The notes beneath the pieces are model-generated. The model was not told the DNA's origin and searched no databases. It saw only the letters and a program-made list of their open reading frames with translations. Shown piece by piece: positions 7,609 to 27,436 of a stretch of 64,000 nt of DNA (the stretch's first letter is position 1; the number at the start of each line of letters is the position of its first letter). Where the stretch lies: NCBI GenBank assembly GCA_037042915.1, contig CM073193.1, positions 1,054,001 to 1,118,000 on the forward strand, given 5' to 3'. Origin of the DNA: Auricularia sp. M13. Lineage: Eukaryota > Basidiomycota > Agaricomycetes > Auriculariales > Auriculariaceae. The translations under genes and the position numbers were made by a program.

Positions 7609-8287
7609 GGATACGTTGTGGTTGGGTGTTCGCGTGGCCGGCATGCCAGCTGCGAGGGATGAGCAGAGCGTGAGACGGCGAGAGACGGTTATTGTTGATT
7701 GGAACGGACCTGGAACAGTGTGAGAGCAGTTGCGGAGTTTGCTTTGCTTTTCCAGAGGCTTACGCCTTCCAGTCGCTCACCTACCCCGACAATGCCACTG
7801 AGCCTCCCAGTGGCACCTAGTCGGCTGCAGTCATTCATGGCACCCTATTAGCTTATCGCTAGTCTCTACTGGATGTTGTCCCGGTCCTCAAATAATCCCA
7901 GTCGTCACCGCCCAGCGTGGGCGACAGCAGCTCATTCTGTGCGTGACGCTCGCTAATTGCTGTGTCTGGGGCTATATGAACGTGCTCTGCCGCATCACTT
8001 GCGACTGGAGCCTCTGTGCTACCTGGACCTGGACGATTCGACACCACCTTGCCTGGAAAGGTCCTCTGTGGAATTGCCCCACGAACGAAGCACACTCGCT
8101 CGCTCATGGCCGAACAGCACCCTTCAACGCGCCTACATAGCTTCCTATTCCGCGTATAGCATCTAGAGTTGCCTGACGGTCTCGAATTCTGTCGAACGAT
8201 CTTGCTACTTGCAAGTTGACTGTCAATTCATCGAACTCTTACTTCCTATTTCACGGAGGGCGCTGTTTGTGCCTAGCTAGACACTAT
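7609..8287. other. Intergenic region upstream of the TBL1-like gene
   Basis: About 680 bp separates two tandem minus-strand genes. It should contain the promoter of the TBL1-like gene and the 3' UTR of the nucleoside hydrolase. Short ORFs here have no recognisable domain, and I see no repeat or RNA gene. Confidence 0.5.
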
Positions 8288-9628
8288 CTAGGCGACACGG
8301 GGTTGCTTAGGGGCGATACCTTGTCGCATTTGTCTACGCATTCGAAAAATAACTCAAAGAATCCGGCCACCTGCACGTGTCAGACGCCCGTTATGTTCAC
8401 GTGCCATGGCGTGGAGACTCACATCGACCGAATCGAGGACAAGGCAGTTCTTCCCAGTCTTGCCCCACGAGTCATCGCTCCGCTGATAGTCCCACACGTC
8501 GACGATCGTCTCGCCCGCAGAGTGCTCGCCGCGAAGCTCGATGTCCACATGCTGCCGTCTGCCTTTGAACAGTTCTGGCCGCGCGAGGTACGCGATCGTC
8601 AGCGCGTCGTGTAAAGGCGGGCCCTCGACGAAGCCAAAGACGTCGCGGTAGGTGTGCGCAAAGAACGACAGTAGCGTCGACAGTGTGTGGCGCAGCGGTG
8701 TGCGCGACGGGTCGAGGCGCTCCATGTGCTCGGCGGTGAATATTGCGGTGTGTGTTATGTTCAACGGTATCATGACTGTGGCATTAGTAGCTTCCAGTCA
8801 ATATGGTTCATGCGCCTTGGTCTGGATGGCCTACCTTTCGGGATGGGGAGCTCGACGACGATCTGCGCCGCCTCGGCTGCTCTGCAAATGAGTGTGCGTT
8901 CCATCAAGGCGCGCAACTAGGCTCACGGTCACAAAGGATGTTATATTCTGCCGCGTGTGCGTTAGCAAGCCGCGCCGGACGAACTGTCCGCAGCGCTCAC
9001 CTGCAACAGCGCTCCGATTCCCACACCGACGCCACCACCCATGAACACGTGCTGCTTGACCTTCGCGACCAGGTCTGGGTACATGCTCGCGAAGAGCGCG
9101 AAATTCGTCACGGGGCCGGTCGTAACCACCGTCACCTCTCCGGGCGCAGCGTCCGCCAAAGCCTTGCGCATTCCCTCGACAGCATGCGCATCACTTGGCG
9201 CGCGTCCGACGGCTGGGAGGCCCTGGACGCCGCCCAGCCCGTCGATGCCGTATCTCCAAGTCTACGCGCCCGGGCCGGAGCAGCGGTTTCGGTGCGCCGC
9301 CGTGCAGCGCGATGGTGGACGGCGCTGCGAAGGCGTCCATGAGCCGCGCCGCATTGGCGAGTGTCAAATGCGCGTGAGCGTTCCCGTGCACCTGCGGTGC
9401 CCACATTCCTGCCATGAGCATGTACATTCAAAGCCCGAGCAGTGCGCGCGTGCTGACCGTTGACACGCCGATGAGCTCTATGCCCGGTGCGTGCAGCGCG
9501 AGCAGGATAGCCAGCGCGTCGTCGTGACCCTGCGCATGTTGCAGTGAGCTTGTTCAGTCCATGATGGCACGGCGAGGTCCCTGGGAGCACGAAGCACGCA
9601 CTGGGTCGCAATCCAGCCAGACTTTCAT
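8288..9628 (-). CDS. Inosine/uridine-preferring nucleoside hydrolase
   Basis: This enzyme hydrolyses the N-glycosidic bond of ribonucleosides in purine and pyrimidine salvage. Exon 1 starts at 9628 and reads MKVWLDCDP; exon 2 completes the Ca2+-binding DPGHDD signature (GHDDALAILLALHAP). After a further intron comes the VHGNAHAHLTLANAARLM block. Then follow VVTTGPVTNFALF, MGGG, and, after small introns, DPEAAQIVVELPIPK and VMIPLNITHTAIF. The late catalytic-site segment PLHDALTIAYLARPELF is present. The last exon reads VAGFFELFFECVDKCDKVSPL and ends at a TAG at 8288. Six or so small introns fit; one junction, after the MGGG block near 8950-9020, could not be fixed by eye. All expected family motifs are present, so the gene looks functional. 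Confidence 0.9.
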
Positions 9629-10165
9629 CCTGCGTGCACGCGCGATCAGCGCAAGCTGGGCCAGGGCAGGCTCCGTTATCCGTTGGTCTCCGCTGCCAGG
9701 TGGAAGCGTCGGACCGGTGACTCCGGACAGTGGCCACTAACCTGACATGCAGTGCAGGGTGAATAAGAAGTAACTGGAATTCTTTTCCCTATTGCCTCTG
9801 CCTATCGGCAACTCGACCGGCGACATGGCGTGAACGAAGATTCAGTGCGATCCTTACAGACACCGCCAGAGACTAACTGTGACAGCAGGTTAACACAGGG
9901 AGCCAGGGTCAAGAAATGCCCTGGTTAACCACAACTTCATGACAGTAAACCCAACATGCAGTTCCTTTCCCACAGGTCAGGGTGCCCGAAGCGCCACGCA
10001 GCGGGGCACTGGGTTGCGGTTCTGTCATCCCGGACGAGACGGTGCCGTGGGGAACATGCGGCCACGACCTCGATGTTTGTGGACGCATGAACTGTCTCCG
10101 TAACCAGGAATATACAGAATTATTCAATAGAGGGTCCATAATAACATATAAAGCCGCCAGTCCAA
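9629..10165. other. Intergenic region
   Basis: About 540 bp lies between the GNAT gene and the nucleoside hydrolase, both on the minus strand. It presumably carries the nucleoside hydrolase promoter. No coding or repeat structure is seen. Confidence 0.5.
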
Positions 10166-10840
10166 TTACTCTTGAATTCCCGCGGTCTGCGAGTTAATAA
10201 ACTTGTCCATGAACACGATCGTGAACCCCGCCTCGCTCCCCAAGAAGCCGCTCGGCAGCCTGCGCTCCTCCGCGACACAGTACCCACGACGGGCGTAATA
10301 CGCGCCGTTGTTCTCCTTGATGCAGCACAACATCACGCGCACCACCTTGCTCGAGTCCTTGCTTTGTGCGATAACGTAAGCCTCGGCGAGCGCGAGCAGG
10401 CGTCCCGCCAGCCCTTGCTTCTGCACGGCCGGGCTCACAGCGAGGCAGCAGAGCAGCCAGCGCGCCTCCGAGGCGGGCGCCGGCCCCAGAGGCGGCCGCG
10501 TGAACTCGCGCTGCGCAGGATGCACATGCGCCAGTGCGTCCAGGTCTACGTCCACGTACTTCCTGATGGACACCGCGCCGTATATCTCCTCGCCGGACTC
10601 GGAAGCCAGGACGAACGTCGTTGCGCCCGCGCCGGTGTCGCTGAGGTACTGCTCGATGCTGTAGTAGCGCGTGCTGTTCTCCGGGAGGATGGGCTGTCGG
10701 GACCCGCTTGCGAACGCGCGGTTCTGCATCTGCACGATCGGTTGGAGTAGCGGCGATTTCGATAGCTCTTCGTGGCTGAGAGTGTGTAACGTGCATTTCT
10801 GGCCGTTCACGACGAGCGGGGCGGCGTCCAGCAAGGCCAT
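10166..10840 (-). CDS. GNAT-family N-acetyltransferase
   Basis: This single uninterrupted ORF of 224 residues starts at an ATG at 10840. The core matches the acetyl-CoA-binding GNAT fold. Strand beta4 with the motif-A region reads WLLCCLAVSPAVQKQGLAGRLL, where Q-K-Q-G-L-A-G corresponds to the Q/RxxGxG/A pyrophosphate loop. A following helix (LALAEAYVIAQ) and a beta5 to alpha4 segment (VMLCCIKENNGAYYARRGYCV) complete it. In that segment N-x-x-A-x-x-Y-Y-x-x-x-G-Y is the typical C-terminal signature. Length is normal for a stand-alone GNAT. The substrate cannot be inferred; small-molecule amines or protein N-termini are both possible. No introns are needed. Confidence 0.85.
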   Translation of the reverse strand: MALLDAAPLVVNGQKCTLHTLSHEELSKSPLLQPIVQMQNRAFASGSRQPILPENSTRYYSIEQYLSDTGAGATTFVLASESGEEIYGAVSIRKYVDVDLDALAHVHPAQREFTRPPLGPAPASEARWLLCCLAVSPAVQKQGLAGRLLALAEAYVIAQSKDSSKVVRVMLCCIKENNGAYYARRGYCVAEERRLPSGFLGSEAGFTIVFMDKFINSQTAGIQE

Positions 10841-11806
10841 GGTCAGTGTAAAAGGATGGAAATTGGAACTGCATGACTCGCTGCGCAGTGAGCACTGACA
10901 CAGACTGACACTGACAGCAGGCGCTAGCAGCCATGTGCTACATGATCAGGCCTTATACTATCCGCTAGTAATCTCCATCAGAGTATAAATTCGAAAAAAC
11001 AGAGCTGGCCTTAGTATGCGCATGAGAATGGCCAATGGCGCAGGCAGAGACGAGGAAAGGTACGTCCCACTCCGCAGACCCGGGGGGCCCGGCCTCACGG
11101 CCGTGCATGTCCTTCAGACAGCGACTGAGACGCTCTCATGTTACTTTACCCAGGGCCTAGAGGGGGCCCAGGGATCCGCGCGAAGTTTGACCCACGAGGC
11201 TGGCACGTGTGGAACTGAGCAATTACATAGCATTCGAATTTGATCAATTGAGATGTCCACACTTCGACAAGCCATAATCATCATCAGCAGCAGACCGAGG
11301 CTTTAATCCAATTTCCGAACAACCAACAGAGCAAAGAAACAGCACAAAGTAAAGGAGTAACTGAAAGAGGCTCTGAAATATATGTAACCCAGGATCCAGA
11401 AAACTACAACCGAAGAAAAAAAAGAGACAATAAAATGTAAGGGGACCTGGCGAACGGGATGGGATGGGATAGAGTCGTGACTCGCTACAAACACACAGCG
11501 CTCAGCAGAAATACAGGCGGGACAAACGAAGATCGTGACGGAGACCGAGACGCGAGGGGGAGGGAGAGCGAGAAACCTACCTAAAAGACAACTTTTTGTT
11601 TTCCGCGGAGGCATGGGATCGGGCGGGAAAGCAAGGGCGGGCAGCGACGAGGGGGGTAGACAGCAGCAGCAGCAAGGGTTCTTCTATAGAGGGCGGGACA
11701 TTCCATTTTCCGGGGACGACGTGAAAGTTTGACGCATAAAGAGAAAGGCGACGGCGCGAAGGTCCGACAGCACCATCGACGCAGCGAGGACGGGGTGGCG
11801 TCCGCG
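10841..11806. other. Intergenic region
   Basis: Nearly 1 kb lies upstream of the GNAT gene and downstream of the next minus-strand gene. It includes a short GGGAT(G) microsatellite near 11456-11472 and a purine-rich stretch. The small ORFs are not supported. Confidence 0.5.
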
Positions 11807-13559
11807 TCAGCGCGCCTCGGCGTCGCGCGCGAGCGCCAAGAACCGGTCGACGAGCGCGCGCTTGCGCTCCTCGCCCGCATGCGAGAGGTCGAGCAGCTTC
11901 TTCAGCCGTTCCACAAGGCCGCGCGGGCCGAGCAGCGGGAACACCTGCGCCTCGTACTGCCTGACATCTACAGTTCAACACATCAGCGTCCATCCTCTAT
12001 ATCACACCCATGAAGAACGGAAAAGCGAAACGGCAGCAGCCCACTCACACTTCTCAAAAACGACAAACGCATCGTCCCCAACGACGCGTCTCAAGTCCGC
12101 GCAAAACGCCGCATAATTATTGCTGTTCGCGCCGGGGTCGTCGCGGAGCCGGTGCGCCGGGATCTCGGGCACCTTGAACACGACCTCCCGTTCCTCTGCG
12201 AGCTCCCGCCCGTCCCGCGCGAGCGCGCGCTCTCGGGCGTCGCGGCGCGCACCGCGGGCTCCGAACGCGAACGCCGGCAGCTGCGCCGTCACCGCCACGC
12301 GGCGCCGTCGGTCCTGGCTGTGGCTGCTGTGCGGGAAGCCGGTCGCGTTGGGCGGGACGACGGTTCCGCCTGTTGGTGCTGGTGTTCTCGTTGCCGCGAG
12401 CGCGAGTGCGAGCGCGAGGGCGGCTGCGAGTGCGCGGGCGGGATGACGATGGTGGACGCCTGGCTCGCGGGCCGTGCGGCGCACAGCACCTCCTTGGTCT
12501 TCTGCAGCCACAGCCGGCCGAGCGACGAGCACGACGTCTTCTCCTTCGTCGTCCGGCCCTCCTTCTCCCTGTCTCCCCGCGCACTGCGCAACGACGTGGC
12601 CCGCGCGAGCCCGCGGCCTTCTCGTCCGTTCCGCCGAGTCCACGCGCGGCCGGCGCTCATCGAGACTCATGCGCCCGCGGCTCCGCGTGCTCCCTGAAGC
12701 GCGCGTCCTGCGGGCTCGCAGGCACCGACACCGACACCGCGCCGCCTGCAGTGCCGGGCCGGAAGGTCGGCGGCACGGGCGCGAGGCTGGACCCGAACGG
12801 CGGCGGCGCGCGGCGGCAGCGGCAGCGGCGCGACCGCGGGCTTCTCGAAGCTGAACGTGCCGTGGCTCACGCGCCCGCGGCTCGAGATCTGCGAGCGCCG
12901 CTGCCCCGGCGCCGGCGGTGTCGACGCTCAGCCGGCCCGTGCCGTCCGTGCTCACCCTCTGCGAGTGGGTGGGGTGCGAGTGGTGCGAGGACGCAGACGA
13001 GTTGGACGCGTCCATCGGCCGCGAAATGTGCCGGCGCGCCACGCGCTCCCCTCGCGTTCGCGTTCACGCAGCTCGCGTTCGCGTTCGCGCTCGCGCTCCC
13101 GGTCGCGTCCTCGCGGTCGCGGTCACGGTCGCTGGCGAACGCGACGCGCCCGGCGGACGCCTTGCTGACGGTCGAGATCGGCGTCACCTTGCGCGGAGGA
13201 CGCGGAGCTGTGCGACACCGCGGAGTACGGCGACGGCGCGCGTCCCGCGGCCTCCTTGAGTGCTGAATTGGTCGTTGCTGATGGGTACGATGACGGTCCC
13301 GACGCGAGGTTGGCATGCGCGTGTGCGTGATCGGGCATGATGGAGGTGACCATCATGACCTTGGTGCGCGTCGAGCCCTTGCGCGCGAGTCCGAGCCGAG
13401 TCCCAAGCCCGAGTCCGCATGCGGTTCACGGTCCCGCCCTCGCATACTGCTATTGCCCAGGTCGAGCGATGGTCGGTTCTTTTTAGGGATGGGAATGCCG
13501 AAGAGCGCTCGGCGTCGGTAGAGGGGTGTTGACGGAAGATGAGCTTCCGGAGGTCAGCG
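11807..13559 (-). pseudogene. Unidentified low-complexity protein gene with a disturbed reading frame, beside the assembly gap
   Basis: The product is not recognised. Read on the minus strand, protein-like sequence continues across the region but jumps between frames every 100-250 bp. Segments include GIPIPKKNRPSLDLGNSS, SGPSSYPSATTNSALKEA, VTPISTVSKASAGRVAFAS, FSFEKPAVAPLPLPP, LGRLWLQKTKEVLC and FKVPEIPAHRLRDDPG. A better-behaved C-terminal exon pair follows (NNYAAFCADLRRVVGDDAF, then after an intron DVRQYEAQVFPLLGPRGLVERLKKLL), ending at a stop at 11807. Composition is Ser/Pro/Ala/Arg-rich with a globular, probably helical C-terminus. The frame changes lack splice consensus around them. Either the sequence carries indel errors near the gap (the GC is very high) or the gene is decayed. 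Its 5' end is lost in the N run, and the exon at 13660-14180 may belong to it. Confidence 0.45.
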
Positions 13560-13659
13560 NNNNNNNNNNNNNNNNNNNNNNNNNNNNNNNNNNNNNNNNN
13601 NNNNNNNNNNNNNNNNNNNNNNNNNNNNNNNNNNNNNNNNNNNNNNNNNNNNNNNNNNN
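13560..13659. other. Assembly gap (100 N)
   Basis: Exactly 100 undetermined bases, a conventional placeholder length, so the true gap size is unknown. It falls inside or between minus-strand coding exons. Confidence 0.98.
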
Positions 13660-14125
13660 CAACAGGCTGCCGAGCGTCATCAACGCGTGCTGTAATTGAA
13701 GAAACCTTCAAGCTGTGAGACGTTACCCATTGCCACGGATTTCCGTCCGAATTCACTACGAGCATGCCGTCGTACATCTTCGTATGTATGGGCAAGAGGT
13801 CTTCGAAAACCGTAAGCATATCCTCCTTCTTGATCAGCCTTTCTGCCGGACCCTGCTGTCTCACTCCGTTCCTCGTGTCGTTTGCAAGAAAGCGATAAAG
13901 ACTCTTGGCTAGCGCCAGAGTTTCCTTCAGTAGGGCCTCACGGGCAAGGACGTTCCGGAGACAGTATGTGTCAACGATCTCAAACATGCCCATGCACGCC
14001 GGGACAGTCGCCCAGGACTGTAATGCAGAGAACGATGCTTTGAGCGAAAGAATGTAGAGTCCGAGTTCCCGCGGCCCGGGCGAACGTCGTCGTAAGCGTT
14101 ATAGGCGGCCGAAAGTTCCGGTGGA
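13660..14125 (-). CDS. Exon of an unidentified protein, truncated by the gap
   Basis: An open minus-strand segment reads MGMFEIVDTYCLRNVLAR, ALAKSLYRFLANDTRNGV, IKKEDMLTVFEDLLPIHTKM and MLVVNSDGNPWQW. It is followed by a plausible donor (AAG/gtttct) just before the N run. The helical, charged character is protein-like. The same frame stays open upstream of the first ATG at 13993 (ELGLYILSLKASFSALQSW), but no clear acceptor lies ahead of that stretch. The real start is therefore unresolved. I do not recognise a domain. It could be the N-terminal part of the gene on the other side of the gap, or the tail of the protease gene upstream. Confidence 0.4.
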
Positions 14126-14238
14126 AAGCATATAAATGGTGTGTCAACCTTAGCCCGGCATAAGAATCTGAGGCCCATATCGCGAAAATACAGCCGCCTC
14201 CACGTATTGGCTTAAAATGACAACCATGGGCCAATCTG

Positions 14239-15020
14239 TCAAAGACTGAATTCTGCGTAGCGGAAACATAGGTCAATATCACTCACTCTCTGCGACAACA
14301 AGAATAGGTCCACGGTTCCCTGCTTCAACGATTTTTGGAGCCCAGAGAGGATGGAGCTAATCCCAGTGAAGGGCAGTCGTACAGGCGATATTGTCTGGGG
14401 ACATATGAACGCCTCGAAATTCAACGATGGTTCGTTCGTAGGGCCTGTGACCACATCGATTCTGAAGCTTTCGCCCAGTGTGGAAATGATGTGAGGGTTC
14501 AACGGGCGCTCCACTGTGCGGTCCAACACAAAGCAGTAATCGCCCATTTCCTCTTGAATCTCAGGATCTCCCAGTCTAGCATGTTGTGCATTCCGCCAGG
14601 AGGCGCCAGTAGACCTTCAGCCGAATCGTGTACGAAAATAACACGTGTGAAACCGTGATTCTCGGGTAAAACTGTGGTCTTTCAGACGTTTGGAATTCTG
14701 CTAGTATGGTCTATTCCTTACTTTTTGCAACGTTTAAGCCGGGAGAGACCTGTACGGTGACTTGCCGATGTGTTCGCAGCTGGATGAGCACTGAAATTTG
14801 GACAATTATCAGCTAGCGACAACGAGGACGCAATAGTGGATTACCTGCCGCTTGATCTTTACGCAACGCCGTCGTTCTAGATTTTTCTTTTGCTTGTATA
14901 TCATCCAGTTCTCTCAATCCTGAAGCCTGTTAGATGGCAGATGATGATTGGAACCGCGATTACCAAGTTGAAGGGCTGGGTCAGCTGTTATTTCAAACGC
15001 GCCTAGGTCGCTTCCTGGTT
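14239..15020 (-). CDS. Probable C-terminal exons of the USP-like protease gene, or a separate unidentified gene
   Basis: Several short open segments on the minus strand can be joined by good splice sites. They include SQPGSDLGAFEITADPALQL; a Lys/Glu-rich helix GLRELDDIQAKEKSRTTALR; VLIQLRTHRQVTVQVSPGLN; ARLGDPEIQEEMGDYCFVLD; and FEAFICPQTISPVRLPFTG, ending LFLLSQR at a gtgagt donor. They follow the protease domain in the same direction within about 30 bp of its last open codon. I therefore read them as a C-terminal extension of that gene. The phase at the junction after the protease domain did not resolve cleanly, so a separate gene is possible. No domain was recognised. Confidence 0.4.
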
Positions 15021-15039
15021 GACTTCTGATTTGGGAGGC

Positions 15040-16496
15040 TCAGTTCAGCAAGTGCGGGAATCCGACTGTCCAAGGCCTGAATCGGTCAGCATTTGCTAGG
15101 AAGAACATATTTGGCCTCACCGTTCTGTCAGCTATGCAGAACAACATGCCTGCATCCTTGAGGACCTTGGCAGGCTGTACGGCCTTGGCACGCTCTGCGT
15201 CATCCAGGAGAATCCAATCTGGACCTTTGCGAACGTGTGCAGTCCAGTGTCCTGCGGCCACCGTTGGGCCAGCATGATTTGCAACAGCAAATGCCCGGTA
15301 GTGTCCGTCCACCTAACCAGCTCAGAGACCACGGTGGCAGATACGGGACATGCTTACCGAGGGGATTATGATGTTATCGAGATCAGAGATGAATTCCAGT
15401 TGCGAGGAGTCTTTCCTGTTCCCGACGTTGCGAATCACATCTATGACGAGGATTTGGGGAGGCTTCGACACCAGGCGTATCTTGTATTTCGGCCCGCCGC
15501 AGTTTCTGAGAGTGTGCCCATCAATGGAACTCATTAGATGGTATATTGAACTTACGCAACGGAACAACTTTCGCCCATGTCGAGGACGGTGGCGTCCAAA
15601 TCGTTGAATGGCGTTGCACGACGTACTTGGATCGTGAACAGCGTTTCCTTTACGGTCGACAGGGCGGCAACATGTTTCTGTCCACATATCTCAGCTTCTA
15701 TGTATTGGGCCTCGAACATAGAAGCAGGTGTGGATTCCTCCGCGCCGCATTTTCTGCGAGACGTGAGTAACAAAGAAGGCAACGGAGATTCTCTGCGGAC
15801 CTCAGAGCTCCGAAAAAAGACCTCAAAGGCCTCCCGCACGTCCTGCTGCTGGTTGCTTCCTAGCATCTGGTGGATTCGGCCTTGAAAGGCTAAGATGAGC
15901 GAACCGCCTTCAGCCAGAGCAGCGTACCAAGGCCACAACTGTGCAAAAAGGCCTCTGGAGGCGGCCAGTCAAGCACGAGTGCATTGTGCAGCGGGATGCT
16001 GCGGTCAATTAGGCACGTTATATTTCTTGCCATCCTGTCTTCTTCCTTGAGCTCATGCAGGCCGACTCTCAGGGGCACACAAGCCGACAAGCATTGGACG
16101 AGGGCGTTGAACCAGCAGCCGACGGCCGGATTGCGCAACCTCGAGAAGCCTGTCGGAGGAGGCCATGTCAAGTGTGCTGGAGAGACCTTCAGCCTTGAAA
16201 AGGCGCAAAGCCTAAGCTAGAATTTCAGTTTATGCAACCTTGCAGAAGAAAAAACTAGGGCTACACGTCATAAACTTTGGATGCCTCCTGTGGAGCGAGG
16301 CGTGACGTGGGATTATTTTTAAGCCTTCCTCTGCAAGCAATGGCTGCCAATGCGTCGTCAGGCATCCCAGCAAAATGTAGAACCGACCCACCTTCCAATG
16401 CTTGCACAAGCCTCGAGCATCTGTCATCTGGGTGACCCGGGTGATCATCAATGACATGGTATCAACGTCCACAACATTTGGTGGGTTGTTGGTCAT
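15040..16496 (-). CDS. USP-fold (peptidase C19-like) cysteine protease
   Basis: This is a likely ubiquitin or ubiquitin-like hydrolase. Exon 1 (MTNNPPNVVDVD..., start 16496) splices at a gtgggt donor. After one or two short introns comes the Cys box: GFSRLRNPAVGCWFNALVQCL, aligning with the USP consensus GLxNxGNTCYMNSxLQ, catalytic Cys about residue 55. Next are GSNQQQDVREAFEVFF (the QQDxxEF region), NCGGPKYKIRLVSKPPQILV, and after an intron VDGHYRAFAV. The His box is GHWTAHVRKGPDWILLDD, with catalytic His and the downstream Asp. The domain ends KDAGMLFCIADR, like the usual AYxLFY ending. It is compact (about 380 residues) and lacks the paired CxxC zinc fingers of most USPs. It is divergently transcribed from the TET/JBP-like gene at 17542. 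The fold call is good; the substrate is unknown. Confidence 0.7.
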
Positions 16497-17541
16497 TGCG
16501 CCGCCGCGGTCGTTATTTTGCGCCTTTGTGGACGTGAAGGAAAGTTTGAACTCCGCCGAGAAACTAAGGAAGTGTACCTAGCGAATCCGAATCCAAGAAA
16601 GCCTAACCGGCCGTTCGAGATCATGCATGGCTTCAAGTGTACCCCAACCTAAATTACCAAGGAGTGAGCGAAGCACCACTTGTCAAAGAGGGAAGATATG
16701 AAAGCTGGCCAGAACTAGAAAAGCCTTGATGACTTCGATGATCGACCTTCCAGAATCCGTCGAATGTAGGCGCTTGGATGTAAGACTAAGCCTGGATAAT
16801 CCAGAGCTCAGCGCCCCTGGCGGATAATCCGCACGGCGGGGACCTATGGTCGCAAATCGGATACGGTAAGTGTCGGCTGGTGGTTGAAAGACTGAGCCTA
16901 GATAATCCAGAGCTCAGCTCCCCTGGCGGATAATCCGCACGACGGAACCTATGGTCGCAAATCGGATATGGTAGCCAACAATATAGAGGCACATCGGGGT
17001 TTGCCGCTGCATTCAATTGCAGCGGCGCGCAAAAAATATTCCCGAGACATGTTGCAGAGCCAGTTCCCCCGCCGGGAGTCCACGACGCATTCGACGCCAA
17101 CGTGAAAAAGCGAATCCCGGCAGATACGCCGCCAGAGCATTGGTCCTGCGCATCACAAAGACGGTCAGGTAGAGCTCCAAGACATCCGGCTAAACGAACC
17201 TCTGATAGTCTCCAGTTCACTCGTTCGAAGCAGCCTGTGAAAGCAACACCCAAGGCGTCAGTAATATCTGAGCTCCGCTTACCTTCATTGACCCTCTCGT
17301 AGTCCGACTGTTGTCCTGGATAAAGAAATTATTTTGAGGTCGCCAACCGAGACTCAAAAATGCTGTGACATTCGTCACACTCGCCCAGCGGCCGCTACTT
17401 GTAGGGTGCGAATCTGCCTAAGAGACTTGAAGACGTCTCCTGATGGTGTAAGCTCGAAATCGTTGGTAGTAGCCACTACTGATAGCCCTGCAGCGTTCTG
17501 CAAAACATTCTCCGATCGAGTATAGGAACACGAGGCGAGCC
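16497..17541. promoter_or_regulatory. Divergent promoter region between USP-like and TET/JBP-like genes
   Basis: About 1.05 kb separates the presumed start codons of two divergently transcribed genes. It contains the paired palindromic repeats at 16784-16973. Short ORFs here mainly translate the repeats and are not supported. No TATA box can be assigned with confidence. Confidence 0.45.
16784..16973. repeat. Two direct 84-85-bp repeats rich in short palindromes
   Basis: Copies at 16784-16868 and 16890-16973 are about 90% identical by eye. Each contains the dyads GGATAATCC and GCGGATAATCCGC, plus a shared ATGGTCGCAAATCGGATA tail. They sit in the shared upstream region of the protease (-) and oxygenase (+) genes, so they are candidate binding sites for a dimeric regulator. 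This is inference from position and symmetry. Confidence 0.75.
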
Positions 17542-19257
17542 ATGGCCTATCATTCCACTAGGCCACGCAATATCTGTGTCCCGGTAGAGGTCGGGTTCAA
17601 TGGAAGCCTCAAATACAACGCCGCTGTCGATGATGATTTACCTGAGAACGAGGACCAAACTGCTGCCTTGCCCAAGGTGCAATTCTTTCTCCCGGGCCAC
17701 TTTTCGATGACCTCATTTTTTAATAGGCCCCACCCCCCAAGAATGACTTACCAAAGCCTGCCGTAGGCCACGAGAAGAAAAGGTCGATGAGTCGCACCAA
17801 CGAGCGCTGGCGCACCTTCCAGCAGGACCGCAGACTTTGCAATTGGGTGGAGAGTGCTCGTGAGTGTGCCTTTGGTATGAATACACTCGAATAACCTTCA
17901 TAGCCGAGTTCACTGCGGATGTGGACGTCCAGCAGTTAGCGGCCCGACCGGCAACGGACTCAGAGCGTCAGAAGGCCGAGGACAAGATCGCATCTATGCG
18001 CGATCTTCCTGCAACCTGCTGGTCAGGCAAATGGAACGACAAGAACGGCGAGCGATTAGTCTCTTATTTTGCCGCGGATCGCGATCTACTGGAATCACTT
18101 ATTGCCCAGGCTCAATCTGAGAGCGCGGGTAAGAGCGATGATCAAATCTTCGAAGAGGTATATGCGAGGTGTCTTCAGGAGGATGGTGTTCATGGTCTTA
18201 TTGTATGTCATATTTATTCATCGGTGTCATTTCACACTTAACTTAACGGCGAATAGCCTGAGCTTTTAGACGATTTCTTGGCCAAGACGCAGCTGCTTGT
18301 AGCTAGTCTTGCGCCCACTACCTGGGCAAAGGTTGACGACAGCTCACGCCATGGTGGTGGCTCTGGCCCGTACATGCGCTATTCACTATGTGCGGAGACT
18401 GTAGACATTCTGCAAGCTTTGCGGAAGGCTCAGTCCAACGACCATTTCGTCCGCTCCGATCTGTGGATTCGGTTCCGCGAGAATGTCACGACGTTGCACC
18501 TGATTCATGCTTGGCACATGAGTGGTCACCGAGAAACTGTGCGTGATATAATTTCCCATCTGCGAAATTTTAACCAGCACTAGGAACGGTTATTTGTCTC
18601 GAAAGAGATGATTGGGTTCGGAAACTGCCACAAGAAGATGTGCGTGGACGCGTACTTCAAAAACACAGTTCTTCAGCGCGCATGGCTACGCAAGACATTT
18701 CAGGCCGCAGTCCCTGAGGAAGACTTTAGGCTATACGAGGCATCATACCTTGCAGGCAATGTCATCGACGGGGATATGGGGCCTTTTCTTGCACAGGTCA
18801 TTGTCTGGAAGTGCCAGAGCCGCTGTCACAGGGATACTCTGGATCGGAAATGGTGCCTATTGCTCAACGGTGGCTACTATGACGGTGGTGCATTCTACCT
18901 TCCAGACCTTGGTTTGAAGCTTGCGTGAGAACCATGTCCTATGTTTACGCCTCTCTACTGATCTGTTTATGCAGCTATAGGCCTGGTGACATCATCATTT
19001 TTCGATCAGCAGCACTCTGGCATTTCGTCGACGACTGGACTCCCCACGATTATCACATCGGCGATGAAATCACACCTGGTCGTATTTCATTCGTTTTTTT
19101 CTCTCCCGATGCTTCTGTGCGGGTATTGCAGGAAAGGCCGCCCGACTGGTTTAGAAACACCGCAGGTGGTGTCTTTGAGCCCGGCGAGACCAGCGTTCCA
19201 GATATCTATCAGGCATGTTCATTTGTAAACCCCCTTTCGACGTCTCTTGATGTTTAG
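17542..19257 (+). CDS. TET/JBP-like 2-oxoglutarate/Fe(II)-dependent oxygenase
   Basis: Members of this superfamily oxidise the methyl group of thymine or 5-methylcytosine in DNA, and Agaricomycetes carry expanded sets. The C-terminal catalytic core reads SRCHRDTLDRKWCLLLNGGYY, then GGAFYLPDLGLKLAYRPGDI, FRSAALWHFVDDW and ITPGRISFVFFSPD. This supplies the HxD metal pair (H-R-D), the GGxFxLPxLGL and YxPGD strands, the distal metal His (LWHFV) and the 2-oxoglutarate Arg (R-I-S-F). Introns confirmed by frame are at about 18203-18256 (gtatgt..aatag), 18539-18582 (gtgcgt..actag) and 18925-18974 (gtgaga..tgcag). The N-terminal half (SVQ/R-rich, KDRDLLESLIAQAQ) has no known domain. The start is either MAYHSTRPRN at 17542 or an ATG near 17788. 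All catalytic residues seem present, so it may be active. Its nearest neighbour is a divergent protease gene. Confidence 0.8.
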
Positions 19258-19606
19258 CCGAAATGTTGAGCCTGGCGCCAATACTTCTGTTGCAGTTCTT
19301 CGCAGCGTGGAAACCCTGTTGCAGTTTCTTCTCAGCGTGGAGAGATTCATGAAGCGTGGAGAGATTCATGGTATTCCTGCAGTTAGTAGGCAAGATATGC
19401 AATCACGCCTGTATTATAAGGCAATATCGGGCGGAGGTTTTGCCCACGTAACTTCGATTTTCGACATCGGACCTGGAATGAACTTAGCCGGGAGACTCCA
19501 GACAGCTCCTCACTGGAAAGGTCGTAGATGACCGCATTTGCCTCCTGCGTCATCGTCTGCGACAGCTCGCTGAGCACCATGCCCAAAATTAGCCATCTAT
19601 CAACAA
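19258..19606. other. Intergenic region with short tandem duplication
   Basis: Between the oxygenase stop and the next plus-strand gene. It contains a short direct duplication of GTGGAGAGATTCATG around 19337-19370. Nothing else is supported. Confidence 0.5.
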
Positions 19607-20764
19607 ATGTGCAATCCTTGGTGTTGGTATGAGTACCAATACATGCCATACATTTTTTGGAGGGGGAATGCTGTTCCGAATGCCAGGTGGCCTATCTGGC
19701 AGGATGCGTTGCCGTATGCTTTGGACTCGCCCGAAATAGCACCCGTCCAGACCGTTACCGCCGGTCGCAGACAGCCATACAACGACGTGACGCCCAGGGG
19801 AAGACCCCATGGAAAGAGGAGAGTTAGACCCAGCTCCTCGCAATCGTCCCTTTCCTCCATCACACATTCGTCGTACACGCAGCGGCCCTCATTTTCGCGT
19901 GGACGCACGAAAAGCAGAATGGTGTCTACCTTGAGCCTCCTCGACGAGCGGTCCAATGCATCCACGGAGCGCCTGCCACCTCTCCGCCGCTCGTCCACAA
20001 ACGACGTCTTCCCTGGTGCCGCATCCACAAACCCGGTGTTCAAACCGCGGTCGCTGTCGACTCATAATGCGCCACGCGATCCGGATTCCGTTCTGCTGTC
20101 CGCGCTCGGCGCGGCGACGTCCCTGCTCGCAGCTCCCGTTATGCATGACAGCCCGCGCCACGCGCCGAACGCACGCCGGCAGGCGGGCTCGCGCTCCTTG
20201 CCGTCCTCGCCCTGGGCGCGCTCGCTATCGCTGGACCGCGACGAAGAGCCCATCAGGCCGCCGCGACCGAGATCCAGGATGTCGATGGGCGGCCCGCCCC
20301 CAGTGGTCGCCCCGCCCGCCACCGTGCGCCAGCCGAAGCTCAAGTACTACGTCCGCACGCACTCGCAGCCCGCGCTCTCGCGTGCACCCTCGCAGCAGGA
20401 CCTCTTCGGGCTCCCGGTGGCGCCGGCCGAGCCAGACGTTATCTTCATACGGACTCGCAGTCGTCCGAACTCCATCAAGATGCAGAGCGCGGAGCGGCCC
20501 GACAGCGAGAGCGAGAGCGAGGATGGCGCCTCGAGCTCGCGGCGCGACGACGACGACGACGACAGCACGATCTCGCAGCTCATGTTGTCCAACGACGACG
20601 AGGACATCAACAGCCTGCTCGTCGGCCCTTCGGTTCCCATGGACGCGGACCTCAGAGACATGGACGCCGAATCGCAGGAAGGCTCAGAGGAGGCGAGGGC
20701 ACTGGATCCCGGGAGATGGTTTGACTCAGAAGCGCGTATGTATTCCAAGGTCGGCAATACGTAG
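19607..20764 (+). CDS. Ser/Arg-rich acidic protein of unknown function
   Basis: This intronless ORF of 385 residues ends at a TAG at 20762. No domain is recognised. The N-terminus is aromatic-rich (YEYQYMPYIFWRG). The middle is disordered and full of RRSS/RSxS basophilic phosphorylation-like sites (RPSFSRGRTKSRM, RSLSTHNAPRDPDS, ARSLSLDRDEEPIRPPRPRS). A Lys/Tyr segment PKLKYYVRTHSQPALSR follows, and the C-terminus carries long acidic Ser/Asp/Glu tracts (DSESESEDG, RRDDDDDDSTISQL). Such composition suggests a regulated, unstructured nuclear or cytoskeletal adaptor, but that is inference. The true start may be a later Met (MVSTLSLLDE, about 19919) or an upstream exon. Codon use is GC-rich and host-like. 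Confidence 0.6.
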   Translation: MCNPWCWYEYQYMPYIFWRGNAVPNARWPIWQDALPYALDSPEIAPVQTVTAGRRQPYNDVTPRGRPHGKRRVRPSSSQSSLSSITHSSYTQRPSFSRGRTKSRMVSTLSLLDERSNASTERLPPLRRSSTNDVFPGAASTNPVFKPRSLSTHNAPRDPDSVLLSALGAATSLLAAPVMHDSPRHAPNARRQAGSRSLPSSPWARSLSLDRDEEPIRPPRPRSRMSMGGPPPVVAPPATVRQPKLKYYVRTHSQPALSRAPSQQDLFGLPVAPAEPDVIFIRTRSRPNSIKMQSAERPDSESESEDGASSSRRDDDDDDSTISQLMLSNDDEDINSLLVGPSVPMDADLRDMDAESQEGSEEARALDPGRWFDSEARMYSKVGNT

Positions 20765-20773
20765 AGCACAGAA

Positions 20774-21492
20774 TTATATCATATGCATATGGATGCTTAG
20801 AGACATGGGATTGTTACGGCAGCGCTTGCAGAGCACACCGAGCACGTAGCCGCCGCACAGGCGGGGCACGCGAGCTGCATGCGATCGCGGCGCCGGGCTC
20901 GCGGTCTGCGCGCCGAGGAAGCACACCCGGCGCAGGGTGCGCAGCTCCGTGTCCTTGGCTTCGAAACGCTGCAGCAGCGTGGCGGCCAGCAAAGGCCGCA
21001 CGCTTTCGACCGGGAACTCATGCCGGCAGCAGCGCGGCGGGAAGAGCAACCCGTCCGTCATGGATGCCTCGAAGAGGTAGGCAGGGGTGGGGGAGGGATC
21101 AGGTTTAACATGAACTCAACAAGGCTGGCTCAGTCGTCGCACGTCTTGCAAATATCTCAGCGGCAAAGCACAACGGCACGCGGTCTATTTTATATTCTAA
21201 CCGAGTAGAGCTCCAGGGTTGCGGTCACTTCTGGTAAGACCAGACATTGCGCAGGACTGAAAAAAATCAACGTCAGCACCAGCTGGAGTAGACAGAAGGC
21301 ATCCAGCTTACGGCCGGCCTTGGTGGCAAGGCGGTTGAGCGAGTCATCGCTCTCGCCCATGGCGCGGACCTGGCCGCAGAGGGCGAACGAGGTCGAGGTC
21401 GGCAGCGCGCGGCCTTCGGCGTCGACGTCGACGATGCTGATTTGGACCGAAGCGTGGTCCTTTGCCGTGATAAGGCGGTCTGCAGAGGCCAT
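20774..21492 (-). pseudogene. RBR-type E3 ubiquitin ligase fragment (copy 1)
   Basis: Minus-strand pieces match the Agaricomycete RBR (RING-in-between-RING) ligase pattern. An N-terminal part (MASADRLITAKDHASVQISI, SDDSLNRLATKAGRK) is followed by a RING1 tail (LFPPRCCRHEFPVESVRPLL, then RFEAKDTELRTLRRV). An IBR-like Cys cluster (ACPACAAATCSVCSAS) comes next in another frame. The catalytic RING2 is missing. The frames do not connect through obvious introns, so this is a decayed copy. A second copy lies directly upstream at 21499-22262, and a further piece occurs near 25.1 kb. Confidence 0.6.
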
Positions 21493-21498
21493 ATATGA

Positions 21499-22262
21499 TC
21501 AGCAAAACCACAGCTCATAGAAAAACATTGACGCACTCGCCGCCGCGCACTTCCGGGGCACGGGGCTCACGCAATACACCGCGCGCAGGGTGTGCAGCTC
21601 CGTCACATTGGCTTCGAAACACTGCAGCAGCACGGCGGCCAGCAAGGGCCGCACGATTTCGACGGGGAACTCTTGCCGGCAGCAGCGCGGCGGGAAGAGG
21701 TCCGCGAGGCAGTGGTGGTGGCAAGGAACGGCGACCAGGGACATAAGAGGTTCAAGACTAACTCAACAAGGCCATAGCAGTCCCAGCCGTTGCACATTTC
21801 CCAAATATTGCGTGGGCAAAGCACAACGGCAGGGTCTATTGCATGTTCGAAGCTAGTAGGATCCTGGACAACCAGCGTCGCGGCGCGGTCACTTTTGGTA
21901 TGACCACACATTCCGCAGCACTGAAGAAATTCAACGTCAGCACCAGCTTGGAGTAGACCGAACGCTGGAGGCTTACAACGGCCCTCGGCGTCGACGTCGA
22001 CGATACTAATCGGGACCGAACGCGATTGGCCGATACTTGAACAATGATGCACGGACAGTAGCAGCAGTAAGATCCCGAGCAAGTAAATCCGGGAGACACA
22101 AGCGGCAGTGCAGGATGGCAGTCGAGAAGTGTGCATCCCGGCGCTCCGAACTGCGTGTACGGGCCGTGGACACATAGGCGCTACTGAGCAGAAAGCACGG
22201 GCATCAGCAACTGGCACCGCAGAAAGCGGGAACACAGGCCGACACATACAGCATGCACACAA
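21499..22262 (-). pseudogene. RBR-type E3 ubiquitin ligase fragment (copy 2)
   Basis: A paralogue of the fragment at 20774-21492, head-to-tail with it. The RING1 tail reads FPPRCCRQEFPVEIVRPLLA, then CFEANVTELHTLRAVYC. The upstream part shares the ISIVDVDAEGR block with copy 1. RING1's first Cys pairs are not clearly preserved, and no IBR or RING2 follows because copy 1 begins there. The tandem order suggests duplication followed by decay. Confidence 0.55.
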
Positions 22263-22659
22263 TACTCATTTTGGTAGCTCGGACAGCGTAGGCAAGGATG
22301 GGCGAGCCCGCGGCGGCCATGGGCGCGAGTGGCGGCGGTCGTGGGGATGGGAGTACGAGGGCAAGAGTATGTGACGGGTCCGTCCGGCAACCTTGGACCG
22401 GACAACTCCCGCGCAATCACACGCGCACCGTGCTGTTTGCTATGGGAGAATACGCTGTCCAGTGGCAGAAATCCCCAGATTGCACCATAGTTCGTTGGGA
22501 AGCCGCTGGTGCTCTTCATGGGCAGGTCGTGCAACATTTTAAGGCAAAGAGGCAGCTATCTCATCTCAGTCCAACTGACCGCCGTTGCTTCCAGATCAGC
22601 GTGGCACAAACGTTCTGTAGCGGACAACGGCCAAAGTTACGGTCGACTACCCTCCATGA

Positions 22660-23099
22660 TCTCCTCTGAAGATTTTCGACTGCAAGACGACGACGGAGAC
22701 GTCGACTTTGACATTGCCGCACTTGACCGTCGATTAGTGGCCTTGGCTCTCTACGACGCTGAAGACGTGGCTGAACAGCGCATGGGCAAGGCGCGATCCG
22801 ATAACAGCCTCACAGATGAAGAGCTGGCCTTCGCAATCTATGGGCAAGAACTCGCTGATCGCCAACTGGCTTACCGTCTCGCTGTAGCTCTGGACGGCGA
22901 TGCCGATCTTCTCGCCCAGATCGAAGAGGATGAGCGGATAGCACGCAGAGACAGAGAGCTTGCTCAGGCAGCTGCTTTTCGCGTCCCCCTGCCTGCCACG
23001 ATTGTCACGCCCGTTCGATCCCCCGTAAGGTTCCCGGCGCGTTCTGGCCTTCACACGCCTGCGCTCTCCGGAACGCAGACACCAGTGCGCGGTCTGTAA
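22660..23099 (+). CDS. RBR-ligase-like N-terminal protein (short, possibly truncated)
   Basis: The ORF from the ATG at 22660 (MISSEDFRLQDDDGDVDFDI) is acidic and helical. It contains DEELAFAIYGQELADRQLAY and DADLLAQIEEDERIARRDRE, resembling the variable N-terminal region that precedes RING1 in Agaricomycete RBR ligases. It ends in a Pro/Thr-rich tail (RFPARSGLHTPALSGTQTPV) and TAA at 23097, with no RING. It stands opposite in strand to the two RBR fragments upstream. Its 3' end (about 23080-23250) is duplicated near 25818-25985. Either it encodes a short relative of the ligases, or it is the broken-off 5' half of one. Confidence 0.5.
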
Positions 23100-23319
23100 A
23101 CTCCAGCACGCTCAAGTCGCCGCTCCACCATCACTCAACAACCATCATTTGGCCAAGCCTTCCAGTCGACGTATGGGCACCTGTAAGGGTCACACTGACG
23201 CCGTATGAGACTGCACATCGACGAAGAAGATGAAGACCGTCTGGGAAGGTTCGTCCGTTCATGATGGGCGACCCTCTCGCGTTCGTCCTTTCATACAGCT
23301 CGTCCCGCGTCGAATGCAC

Positions 23320-23770
23320 AGCTTGTGGGAGCCGCATCCTGGGCGACAGGAGCCCGCGCGCGCCGTGCAGCCACGTCTTATACTATTCAAGTACTATTAC
23401 GGCCCTTGCCCCCGGCGGAATGGGTATTTCCCTTAAGCCTCTTTCGGAACTTGCCGACGCAAACGCCAGCTGGCGTTTGCGTCGGCAAAATCCGATACAG
23501 CGCATTCTAACAGACCATTTTTCCAGATAAATAGGCCCTTTCAAATATGGTGCAGTCCCAGCTTGTGGGAGCTGCATCCGGGGCGGCAGGAGCCCGCGCG
23601 CGCCGTGCATCCACGTCTTGTACTATTCAAGTACTATTACGGCCCTTGCCCCCCCTCTTTTCGGAACTTGCCGACGCAAACGCCAGCTGGCGTTTGCGTC
23701 GGCAAAATCCGATACACCGCATTCTAACAGACCATTTTTCCAAATAAATAGGCCCTTTCAACTATGGTGC
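23320..23770. repeat. Tandem pair of ~220-240-bp repeats, each carrying a 38-bp perfect palindrome
   Basis: Unit 1 begins at 23320 and unit 2 at 23560 (both at CAGCTTGTGGGAG). Unit 2 lacks about 20 bp in its middle. Each includes a perfect 38-bp inverted repeat without spacer, at 23451-23488 and 23668-23705, centred on CCAGCTGG. Each unit ends with an AT-rich stretch followed by AGGCCCTTTCAA. No coding function is apparent. Confidence 0.85.
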
Positions 23771-24039
23771 AATGCGCACCGCAATCCGAGCCGCAAACGC
23801 GCCGCAATCCGGCGCCAAGAAAAGTGAAAATCGACCGTCCCGTCAGTCGGAGGCCTCAGTAGCGCCAGCAAACACGACAATCCGGCTTGATTGCAAACTA
23901 AAAAGCACCTCCGGAGGTCCTTTCCGGATTGCAAGCAATCGGACGGTTTTCACGAAATCAAAAGGGCGGTTCCGGGGTCCGTTTGCGCCTCGAATTGTGG
24001 CTCGGATTGCTGATCGTTTGCATCATATTTAAAAGGGCC
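23751..24039. mobile_element. MITE-like element with ~45-bp imperfect terminal inverted repeats
   Basis: The left end (GGCCCTTTCAACTATGGTGC..., 23751) matches the reverse complement of the right end (GGCCCTTTTAAATATGATGC..., ending 24039). The match runs about 45 bp with several mismatches and includes a shared GCAATCCGAGCC block. The interior of about 190 bp has no ORF and carries further GGATTGC/GCAATCC copies. The 289-bp size, inverted ends and subterminal repeats are those of a non-autonomous DNA element. A target-site duplication was not clear, which lowers confidence. Confidence 0.5.
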
Positions 24040-24298
24040 GAATGAGACACTGCAGATCAACGTAAATCCCTTCCTGCAATCATTAATGCTGCAAGTGAGT
24101 AGTAAGTCCCTGGAAAAGGCGCAGGGGATGAGGTTAAAAGAGGCTGGCATTACATAAACTGACGATATCAGTATCAGTCCACAGCGGGCACTAACGAGCG
24201 TTCTGGTAGCACTGTCTCGCACCCCATTTGCTTAGTTATCATTTCTGCTGTATGGCGATCTTGCTCAGGGAGCATTGTGCCCGGAATTTTACCATATT

Positions 24299-24314
24299 AA
24301 CCTAACCTAACCTA
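24299..24314. repeat. (AACCT)3 tract
   Basis: Three AACCT/TTAGG pentamers in an otherwise unremarkable stretch. The same tract recurs at 27421-27435 and 29595-29614, each time at the edge of a repeat block. Confidence 0.9.
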
Positions 24315-24563
24315 CTTATGCGCCTTCTCGTGGCAGGACCTTTCCACAGGATTGTTATCCGTGGACATTTGAAGATGATCTCCGGCCGGACTTGTGGATT
24401 TAGGCCTGAAGCTTGGAAGTCCTGTATTCTGTAATTCCCTCTTACTGTACTGGGAGATGTGGTCCAAGTCTAAACCCTTTGTTGTAGCACTATCAAATCA
24501 TTTTCGCCGATTTTCTACTGCAAGGGAAGTTTATCTGAGGCTTGACATTGCTATGCAAAAGGC

Positions 24564-24765
24564 ACAAATAGGCACATTGGTTCAAAGGACACATAACTGT
24601 ACATCAGAACCGAGCTGCAGAGTTGCTATGCGAAAGGCACAAAGGCGCTTGAAGCTCGTCTGCTTGTGCTTCTCCAAGGGACATAGGTTCAGCACGCGCT
24701 CCGTCGAGGGCGTAAATAGGCACATTTGTTCAAAGGACACATATCTGTACATCAGAACCGAGCCG
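24564..24765. repeat. Direct repeat of ~50 bp
   Basis: A segment starting AAATAGGCACATT and running to CATCAGAACCGAGC occurs at about 24564-24614 and again at about 24714-24765 with few differences. The flanking AAAGGCACAAA words repeat too. The function is unknown. Confidence 0.7.
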
Positions 24766-24881
24766 CTGAGTTCCCAACTTCCGCCATGGAGAACGATCAA
24801 GGTACCGCTCCGATGACGTCCTTGGCTGGAAGCCAGGACATCTGTCCATCCAGAGTCATCCATCGAGAGTAGCTAATGAGG

Positions 24882-25464
24882 AATCAAGAAGCAGATAGCA
24901 TGGTGCAGACATACCCTGGAGCCCTTGCACCCGATGACGAAGCAAATTGCTGCCGTGGCTGAGGGCGCTTCAGCGTCTACAGACGATCTGCGCCGCCAAG
25001 CGCAATCAAACAAGCGCGACTCACCAGCTTAGTTGGCCGGCACTTGAACAATGATCCCTGTCCTACGGGGGGAGGGATCAGGTTTAACATGAACTCAACA
25101 AAGCTGGCTCAGTCGTCGAACGTTTTGCAAATATCTCAGCGGCAAAGCACAGCGGCCCTCTGCGTCTACGTCGACGACGGTGATTTGGACCGAAGCGTGA
25201 TCTTTTGCCGTGATCAGTCGGTCTGCAGAGGCCATATATGATCAGCAAAACCAGCCACAGCCCATAGAAAAGCGTCGTATCAAGAAGCAGATAGCATGGT
25301 GCAGACATACCCTGGAGCCCTTGCACCCGATGAAGAAACAAATTGCTGCCGGGGCTGAGGGCGCTTCAGCATCTAAAGACGATCTGCGCGGCCAAGCGCA
25401 ATCAAACAAGCACGACTCACCAGCTTAGTTGGCCGGTACTTGAACAATGATCCCTGTCCTACGG
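24882..25464. repeat. Direct duplication of a ~187-bp segment flanking an RBR-family remnant
   Basis: Copies at 24882-25068 and 25279-25464 (from ATCAAGAAGCAGATAGCATG to GATCCCTGTCCTACGG) are about 93% identical. Between them lies about 210 bp that repeats the RBR fragment noncoding and N-terminal sequence of 21081-21180 and 21400-21505. It includes GGGATCAGGTTTAACATGAA and the ISIVDVDAEGR-coding stretch. A likely unequal exchange duplicated part of a ligase gene. Confidence 0.75.
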
Positions 25465-25817
25465 CACAGGCAGCAGCAGCATGAGTGCGACTATTCCGCA
25501 TGATCGCAGTGCTCTGGGACATACGTTTCATCGACTGAAGGTATGCAGTACTGTGACTTGCAAGCGTAGAACCATGGAGAGAGGATTCAAGACCGAGGGC
25601 TGGATTTTGCCCTCGTCTCGAGTTCAGCTGCATGGCCGTCCTGGTGAGAGATTGAAAGCACCCGGTACCGGTACGCACCAACCTCGTACATGCCGGGCGG
25701 GGTTCCGGCCCCCCAGCACCGGTAGGGCACCGGCCTCGTACATGCCGTGTTCCGGTATATTGACACGCACTGAGCACTGAGCAGGGAATGGTAAGTAATC
25801 AACCCCTGCGCGCTGCG

Positions 25818-25985
25818 GCACCAGTGCGCCGTCTGCAAACTCCAGCACGCTCAAGTCGCCGCTCTGTCAACAACCATCAATTTCCCATGCCTTCCGGGGA
25901 ACGTATGGGCTGGTCATGCACCTGCAAGGCTCACACTGACGCCGTGTTAGACTGCACATCGACAAAGAAGATGAAGACCATCTGA
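25818..25985. repeat. Duplicate of the 3' flank of the RBR-like ORF
   Basis: This segment (ACTCCAGCACGCTCAAGTCG ... GAAGATGAAGACC) is a diverged copy of 23080-23250, directly downstream of the RBR-like ORF stop. It shows that pieces of this family are scattered across about 5 kb. Confidence 0.65.
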
Positions 25986-26958
25986 GCATACAACTTCTTG
26001 TATGCTTCCGACAGCCCGGAAGCATCCAAGTTGAGGCATTGGGGTCAGTCCGCTGGGCCGGGGACCGTGGTATCAAAAGCAAAGACCCCAGCAAGCAGAA
26101 CATGTCCTCTGGATGACACTTGAGTCAGTCTGGCCAGTGGCATGATGAGCCAACAGCGGTCATGTGTGGGCGGCGGCCCGGAAGCATACAACTTCTTGTA
26201 TGCTTCCGACGGCCCGGAAGCATACAACTTCTTGTATGCTTCCGACGGCCCGGAAGCATCCAAGTTGCTGCTCCAGGCTGAAGTCCGCTGGGCCAGGACC
26301 CTGGTATCACAAGCAAAGACCCCAGCAAGCAGAACATGTCCTCTGGATGACACTTGAGTCAGTCTGGCCAGTGGCATGATGAGCCAACAGCAGTCATGTG
26401 TGGGCGGCGGCCCGGAAGCATACAACTTCTTGTATGCTTCCGACGGCCCGGAAGCATCCAAGTTGCTGCTCCAGGCTGAAGTCCGCTGGGCCAGGGACCC
26501 TGGTATCACAAGCAAAGACCCCAGCAAGCAGAACATGTCCTCTGGATGACACTTGAGTCAGTCTGGCCAGTGGCATGATGAGCCAACAGCAGTCATGTGT
26601 GGGCGGCGGCCTGGAAGCATCCAAGTTGCTGCTCCAGCCTGAAGTCCGCTGGGCCAGGGACCCTGGTATCACAAGCAAAGACCCCAGCAAGCAGAACATG
26701 TCCTCTGGATGACACTTGAGTCAGTCTGGCCAGTGGCATGATGAGCCAACAGCGGTCATGTGTGGGCGGCGGCCCGGAAGCATACAACTTCTTGTATGCT
26801 TCCGACGGCCCGGAAGCATCCAAGTTGCTGCTCCAGGCTGAAGTCCGCTGGGCCAGGGACCCTGGTATCAAAAGCAAAGACCCCAGCAAGCAGAACATGT
26901 CCTCTGGATGACACTTGAGTCAGTCTGGCCAGTGGCATGATGAGCCAACAGCGGTCAT
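25986..26958. repeat. Nested minisatellite: 163-234-bp units with variable 36-bp hairpin subrepeats
   Basis: The junction CATGTCCTCTGGATGACA recurs at about 26101, 26335, 26534, 26697 and 26896, giving unit lengths of 234, 199, 163 and 199 bp. The length classes differ by 35-36 bp. They correspond to two, one, zero and one copies of a 36-bp subrepeat containing the hairpin GGAAGCATACAA-CTTC-TTGTATGCTTCC. Long minus-strand ORFs over this array are only the repeat translated; the 199-bp unit is not a multiple of three. Confidence 0.9.
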
Positions 26959-27435: not shown

Positions 27436-27436
27436 G

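Follow-up and report, generated by a model that had tools for sequence, protein, structure and literature searches.

Fungal DNA transposons that carry TET/JBP genes are known (sections of PMC12730594), and the closest described enzymes are the AG-type TET/JBP proteins of Kyakuja and Zisupton elements and CcTET of Coprinopsis cinerea (7vpn, 8jkk). Subtelomeric gene families are also known, for example the RecQ helicases at the chromosome ends of Agaricus bisporus var. burnettii (part of PMC7473861). Here we describe a window of 64,000 nucleotides from Auricularia sp. M13 (C1:1054001-1118000, C1 being contig CM073193.1; the genome comprises 52.1 Mb on 14 contigs), in which a USP-type protease gene and a TET/JBP-like oxygenase gene diverge from one intergenic region. 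Like the transposon-borne genes as described in those sections, the oxygenase is multi-copy in a fungal genome, and it shares with the AG-type proteins and CcTET the HxD...H...R residues and profile matches. It differs from them in falling far under the Tet_JBP cut-off, in carrying a Cys at the position of CcTET Asp337, and in being linked to a USP; unlike the AG-type genes in Kyakuja and Zisupton, its copies have no match within 88 kb among the listed KDZ (Kyakuja, Zisupton, Dileera) transposases. The likeness to the RecQ families, as far as PMC7473861 covers them, would lie in similar or identical gene copies by several telomeres, whereas the repeated block found here carries USP, TET-like, and F-box-like genes and a third gene (no search for RecQ was made). 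We consider it likely that the pair consists of two ordinary genes, probably functional, that lie within a subtelomeric segmental duplication.

The pair and the repeat that contains it are made up as follows, in window positions.

15040 to 16496, minus strand: USP/C19-type protease gene, 6 exons, 368 amino acids, with the UCH profile and active-site residues
16496-16392, 16211-16187, 16149-15928, 15889-15556, 15505-15358, 15312-15040, minus strand: exons of the protease gene
17542 to 19257, plus strand: TET/JBP-like oxygenase gene, 6 exons, 490 amino acids, with H365, D367, H413, and R433
17542-17676, 17727-17859, 17904-18202, 18257-18538, 18584-18924, 18975-19257, plus strand: exons of the oxygenase gene
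16497 to 17541, no strand: shared intergenic region, 1,045 bp between the divergent protease and oxygenase genes
13660 to 27440, no strand: window part of the shared block, ~96-99.5% identical to C5, C8, C9, and C12 outside the right-end tandem repeats
13560 to 13659, no strand: assembly gap of 100 N, directly at which the block starts in the window

Both genes of the pair are real. Their spliced models were built by hand from three-frame translations of each gene's strand and GT-AG introns, and the least certain parts are the first exon and two introns (37 and 38 nt) of the protease gene. An earlier note on this DNA had read a C19-like protease on the minus strand diverging from a TET/JBP-like oxygenase on the plus strand, and this is borne out by the spliced models, by Pfam, and by the active-site residues; the region of ~1 kb that it placed between them corresponds to the 1,045 bp measured here. 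The end that it gave the protease, at 14239, has to be moved: the gene ends at 15040, and the open frame 14239-14547 is part of a third gene on the minus strand. The shared intergenic region contains a tandem duplication of ~105 bp (16765-16868 and 16871-16973) and three palindrome-like GGATAATCC motifs.

Protein searches with each of the two genes placed the pair at five locations in the 52-Mb genome, on C1 (the window), C5, C8, C9, and C12. Every match to either protein at more than 80% identity lies at one of these five places, the divergent order is kept in five of five, and the co-occurrence of the two genes exceeds chance. The joined loci are 99.4-99.5% identical in DNA across ~6.6 kb, within which the end of the repeat is not reached, and the order as read from the contig end, USP followed by TET-like, is equal in C5, C9, and C12. 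With window 20000-30000 as query (39 of 241 candidates scored), sequence common to the four other contigs was found up to ~27440, with tandem repeats interrupting it. On the other side, the C5 copy extends 11.7 kb beyond the window part, up to a telomere-like AACCT array at the contig start, and an AACCT array also terminates C2. The stretch C5:300-9000 is common to C8, C9, and C12 at 99%, and the intervening 2.7 kb, up to the part represented in the window, are of equal length in all four contigs (a comparison of length only). The block therefore measures about 25 kb or more; it is near-identical in four contigs, lying at the telomere-like array in C5, and a fifth, partial copy runs from the gap in the window. 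Scanning of ten selected open frames of the block with Pfam gave a single credible match, an F-box-like domain on the telomere side (6831-7226 of C5:1-9000; E 7e-5, 22.9 bits, cut-off 24.3).

Ectopic recombination and break-induced copying of ends are common at subtelomeres. By such a route the block may have spread between chromosome ends, and the USP and TET-like genes would have been carried along with it. The one shared upstream region of 1 kb could give the two genes common expression, and the likeliest benefit, if there is any, would be that genes at a silenced chromosome end are kept expressed. The left flank of the window copy speaks for a duplication as well: window 5000-13559, to the left of the gap, has a 98% reverse copy at C1:4574635-4583319, and no copy of the block was found there among the matches listed.

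Several observations weigh against the subtelomeric reading. Two of the five copies are not close to contig ends as assembled: the one on C8, a contig of 3.84 Mb, sits at 1.87-1.89 Mb, and the one on C1, a contig of 9.42 Mb, at 1.07 Mb. The telomere-like array beside the block was seen in C5 only; on C9 and C12, 38 and 27 kb separate the copy from the contig end, and both contigs run past the point of the C5 array by 25 and 14 kb, stretches that were left unread. Nor is an AACCT array alone proof of a chromosome end, because such arrays also occur in the interior of C1, C2, C3, and C4, for example at C3:2317627-2317990 (100 of 156 places listed). The KDZ family was the only one for which transposases were searched genome-wide. 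It should also be noted that, as assembled, the USP frame is uninterrupted in one of the five copies (that of the window) and the TET-like frame in three (window, C5, and C8), the latter being shifted close to its end in C9 and beyond the Arg motif in C12. Comparison with the window over 14700-19600 gave 5 substitutions and 13 indels for C5, 9 and 9 for C8, 5 and 10 for C9, and 7 and 10 for C12, so that indels exceed substitutions by 42 to 26 when summed over the four comparisons, in each of which differences private to the window are counted. This excess suggests sequencing error without being proof of it; if the indels are real, most copies of the protease are dead.

The window copy of the protease gene encodes a complete active site. 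The UCH profile (PF00443) matches residues 48-336 at E 4.5e-17 and 62.9 bits, covering profile positions 3-253 of 254, and passing its curated cut-off of 23.9 places the protein in the USP family (peptidase C19). Pfam gave no other credible domain, and a search against NCBIfam returned no match. Catalytic Cys, His, and Asp/Asn together with an oxyanion Asn are the roles that such residues have in USP enzymes. In an alignment to human USP2 (3v6c), N50, C55, H300, and D315/D316 fall in the canonical boxes: the Cys box reads RNPAVGCWFNALVQ, with Asn and Cys retained, and the His box reads GHWTAHVRKGPDWILLDDAE, with His and Asp retained. Compared with USP deubiquitinases such as USP2, USP21, and USP12/46, the window protease thus keeps the Asn and Cys of the Cys box and the GHWTAH...W..DD of the His box, and differs in being compact (368 amino acids) and in having AVGC in place of GNTC. 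It would be expected to remove ubiquitin from some substrate.

The oxygenase is much more distant from its described relatives. Tet_JBP (PF12851) is the sole Pfam family named for it, at E 0.006 and 16.2 bits and thus under the cut-off of 34.9, and a search with the single sequence reached CcTET at just E 0.6. Two diverged homologues are encoded on C6, at 4.03 and 1.52 Mb, with core identities of 45 and 47%. The match to one of them is interrupted at residue 396/397, the position of an intron in the window gene. A profile of the three homologues matches CcTET at E 4.4e-4 and Naegleria Tet at 0.08-0.1, and its comparison with an alignment of nine AG-like proteins (drawn from the 23 PF12851 loci of the genome, called AG-like by analogy, without a tree) gives an hhalign probability of 96. 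Core pieces of all three homologues match Tet_JBP at E 0.1 or below (best 1.1e-4), and the metal- and 2-oxoglutarate-binding residues HRD...H...R (H365, D367, H413, and R433) are invariant in all three. Viral contigs searched with the oxygenase held no relative. Because of the profile matches to CcTET, Naegleria Tet, and the AG-like alignment, and because of the invariant HRD, second His, and Arg, the oxygenase is, as judged from its sequence, a divergent TET/JBP relative.

The PE type of TET/JBP dioxygenase, which sections of PMC12730594 report from some Agaricomycetes, resembles the window oxygenase in being very distant from known TET enzymes. An identity with it was rejected: the mark of the PE type is HxE (PMC12730594, section 23), whereas the window oxygenase keeps HxD, and HRD is found in all three homologues. 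The same section describes Asp337 of CcTET as essential for activity on 5-methylcytosine (5mC). Since a Cys invariant in the three homologues aligns with this position, the substrate of the oxygenase may not be 5mC. The enzyme would use Fe(II) and 2-oxoglutarate to oxidize a modified base in DNA; matches to C-5 DNA methylases are present in the genome, so a methylated-DNA substrate is possible.

A different origin had been suggested in the earlier note, in which the pair was thought to be possible cargo of a mobile element within a suspected repeat. The repeat is real, but it looks like a duplication of chromosome ends and not like a mobile element. Stated fully, the alternative is that a large mobile element (KDZ, Plavaka, Helitron, or a giant element) carries the pair and has inserted near chromosome ends; the oxygenase would shield the element from methylation-based silencing, as has been proposed for TET-carrying fungal transposons, and the protease might assist by deubiquitinating proteins of silencing or repair. 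It draws on the known occurrence of TET/JBP-bearing transposons in fungi (sections of PMC12730594) and on the five near-identical copies. The 25 longest of 42 inverted-repeat pairs in 12-24 kb include none that bounds the gene pair. This range contains the 13.5-21 kb for which the note had proposed such a check, a unit that proved to be the wrong one to test. A small element bounded near 13.5-21 kb was rejected, since no bounding inverted repeats were found in this range and the shared block is far larger. The block moreover reaches a telomere-like array in C5.

KDZ transposases are frequent in the genome, with at least 154 matches; together with the short introns and the AG-like TET genes, they are in keeping with a mushroom-forming fungus. 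The nearest listed match lies 89 kb from the pair on C1 (88.8), 146 kb on C8, 232 kb on C9, and 637 kb on C5. C12 has no listed match, and none of those listed comes closer than 88 kb to one of the five copies (150 of 163 candidates scored); a KDZ transposon was rejected on these grounds. The AG-like loci offer a comparison: 5 of the 23 have a listed KDZ match at a distance of at most 15 kb. In 1000 random draws the corresponding number averaged 1.24 and never exceeded 6, when one start per cluster (96 of the 154 matches) is used and the draws are confined to C1-C12. This counts in favor of the cargo alternative; the other 18 of the 23 also lack a KDZ neighbor within 15 kb, so the contrast with the pair is modest. 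With no inverted repeats bounding the pair among those listed for 12-24 kb and the nearest listed match of the KDZ family at 88.8 kb, cargo of a mobile element is not supported as the origin of the pair, and we regard it as unlikely.

The recurrence of the pairing, on which the earlier note had based its idea of a module, is found at five places within this genome; as all five lie in one nearly identical block, they amount to one pairing event. They repeat a single arrangement and are not independent evidence for a module. No USP match was found close to the C6 homologues of the oxygenase: the nearest UCH matches lie at distances of 640 kb and 1.08 Mb, the protein search with the USP found nothing on C6, and the flanks that were read show none, the upstream side of the genes, on which a USP would be expected, having been read for at most a few hundred bases. 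The UCH family search listed one of the five known USP copies, that on C9, so its negatives are weak and the protein search is the better guide. A literature search, covering titles and the starts of abstracts among the papers listed, found no TET/JBP gene linked to a USP, and the terms ubiquitin, protease, peptidase, Ulp1, OTU, and hydrolase are absent from the main text of PMC12730594. Functional coupling of the two enzymes is a possible hypothesis.

One form of it would be a subtelomeric cassette against silencing, in which the TET-like enzyme, by oxidizing bases, and the USP, by removing ubiquitin, act jointly on the heterochromatin of chromosome ends and selection keeps the head-to-head order. 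The divergent genes share a 1-kb region with a tandem repeat, both are present in all five copies, the catalytic residues are intact in the window copy, and the C-5 DNA methylase matches make methylated DNA plausible. On the other hand, a single recent duplication seems to account for the copies, and their linkage then says little on selection; the searches made gave no USP match close to the diverged C6 homologues; the Cys at the Asp337 position (following section 23 of PMC12730594) means that the substrate may not be 5mC; and the USP frame is open in just one of five copies as assembled. We consider such a cassette quite unlikely.

The assembly itself offers a further explanation, namely that the assembler multiplied one chromosome end and that scaffolding placed copies of it in C1 and C8. 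A gap of exactly 100 N adjoins the block, two copies are internal to contigs, AACCT arrays occur inside contigs, and the excess of indels over substitutions (42 to 26) is as in error-prone reads. The gap looks like a scaffold join of unrelated contigs rather than an insertion point, because the sister of the left flank at C1:4.57 Mb has no listed copy of the block, and the interior AACCT arrays point to misjoins or interstitial arrays. Against an artefact, the copies differ by substitutions and by ~426 bp that are absent from the window copy only, and C5 has its own telomere-like array; we consider an artefactual origin very unlikely. It is hardly probable, too, that a selfish subtelomeric cassette is at work, in which a non-transposon TET/JBP-like subfamily, a deubiquitinase, and an F-box-like gene would open end chromatin and so favor the spread of their own block.

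If the subtelomeric duplication is the correct reading, TET/JBP-like enzymes occur in two settings in this fungus: an AG-like set, some members of which lie near KDZ transposases, and a divergent subfamily, one member of which lies on duplicated chromosome ends beside a deubiquitinase. This would make DNA-base oxidation at fungal subtelomeres open to testing in a concrete case. Linkage across the copies of one recent duplication is no evidence for a functional module.

Two further features of the window adjoin the pair or its block.

13660 to 14630 (limits approximate), minus strand: third gene, no family match, interrupted by the assembly gap
27437 to 30001, no strand: further repeats, common to C2, C13, C6, C4, C5, C7, and C11 among the matches listed, mostly near contig ends

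Pfam and PDB searches with the third gene gave no family match. Its window copy lacks ~426 bp between 14156 and 14159 that are present in the four other copies, and in C5, where this stretch was read, a 4-bp CGGC stands at the junction. An element inserted in the other copies was rejected, as in C5 the stretch has no inverted repeats at its ends and can be read as coding sequence of the third gene; a deletion through the 4-bp CGGC in the window copy is the likelier origin of the difference. Relatives of part of the third gene, ~40% identical, were found at C9:3720638-3720907 and C12:1238577-1238735, ~18 kb further towards the contig end, and because of them the C9 and C12 ends may also hold diverged older duplicates. 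To the left of the gap, the 98% duplicate of the flank suggests a misjoin or an unpurged duplicate inside the 9.4-Mb contig C1. To the right of the pair, window 19693-21563 has a match of 81-88% identity at C4:3722058-3723964, which lies outside the block, and this C4 segment is a possible source or older copy of the neighboring open frame of 385 amino acids. Among the further repeats, window 29615-30001 is part of a satellite that has a unit spacing of ~1.56 kb near the C4 and C5 ends.

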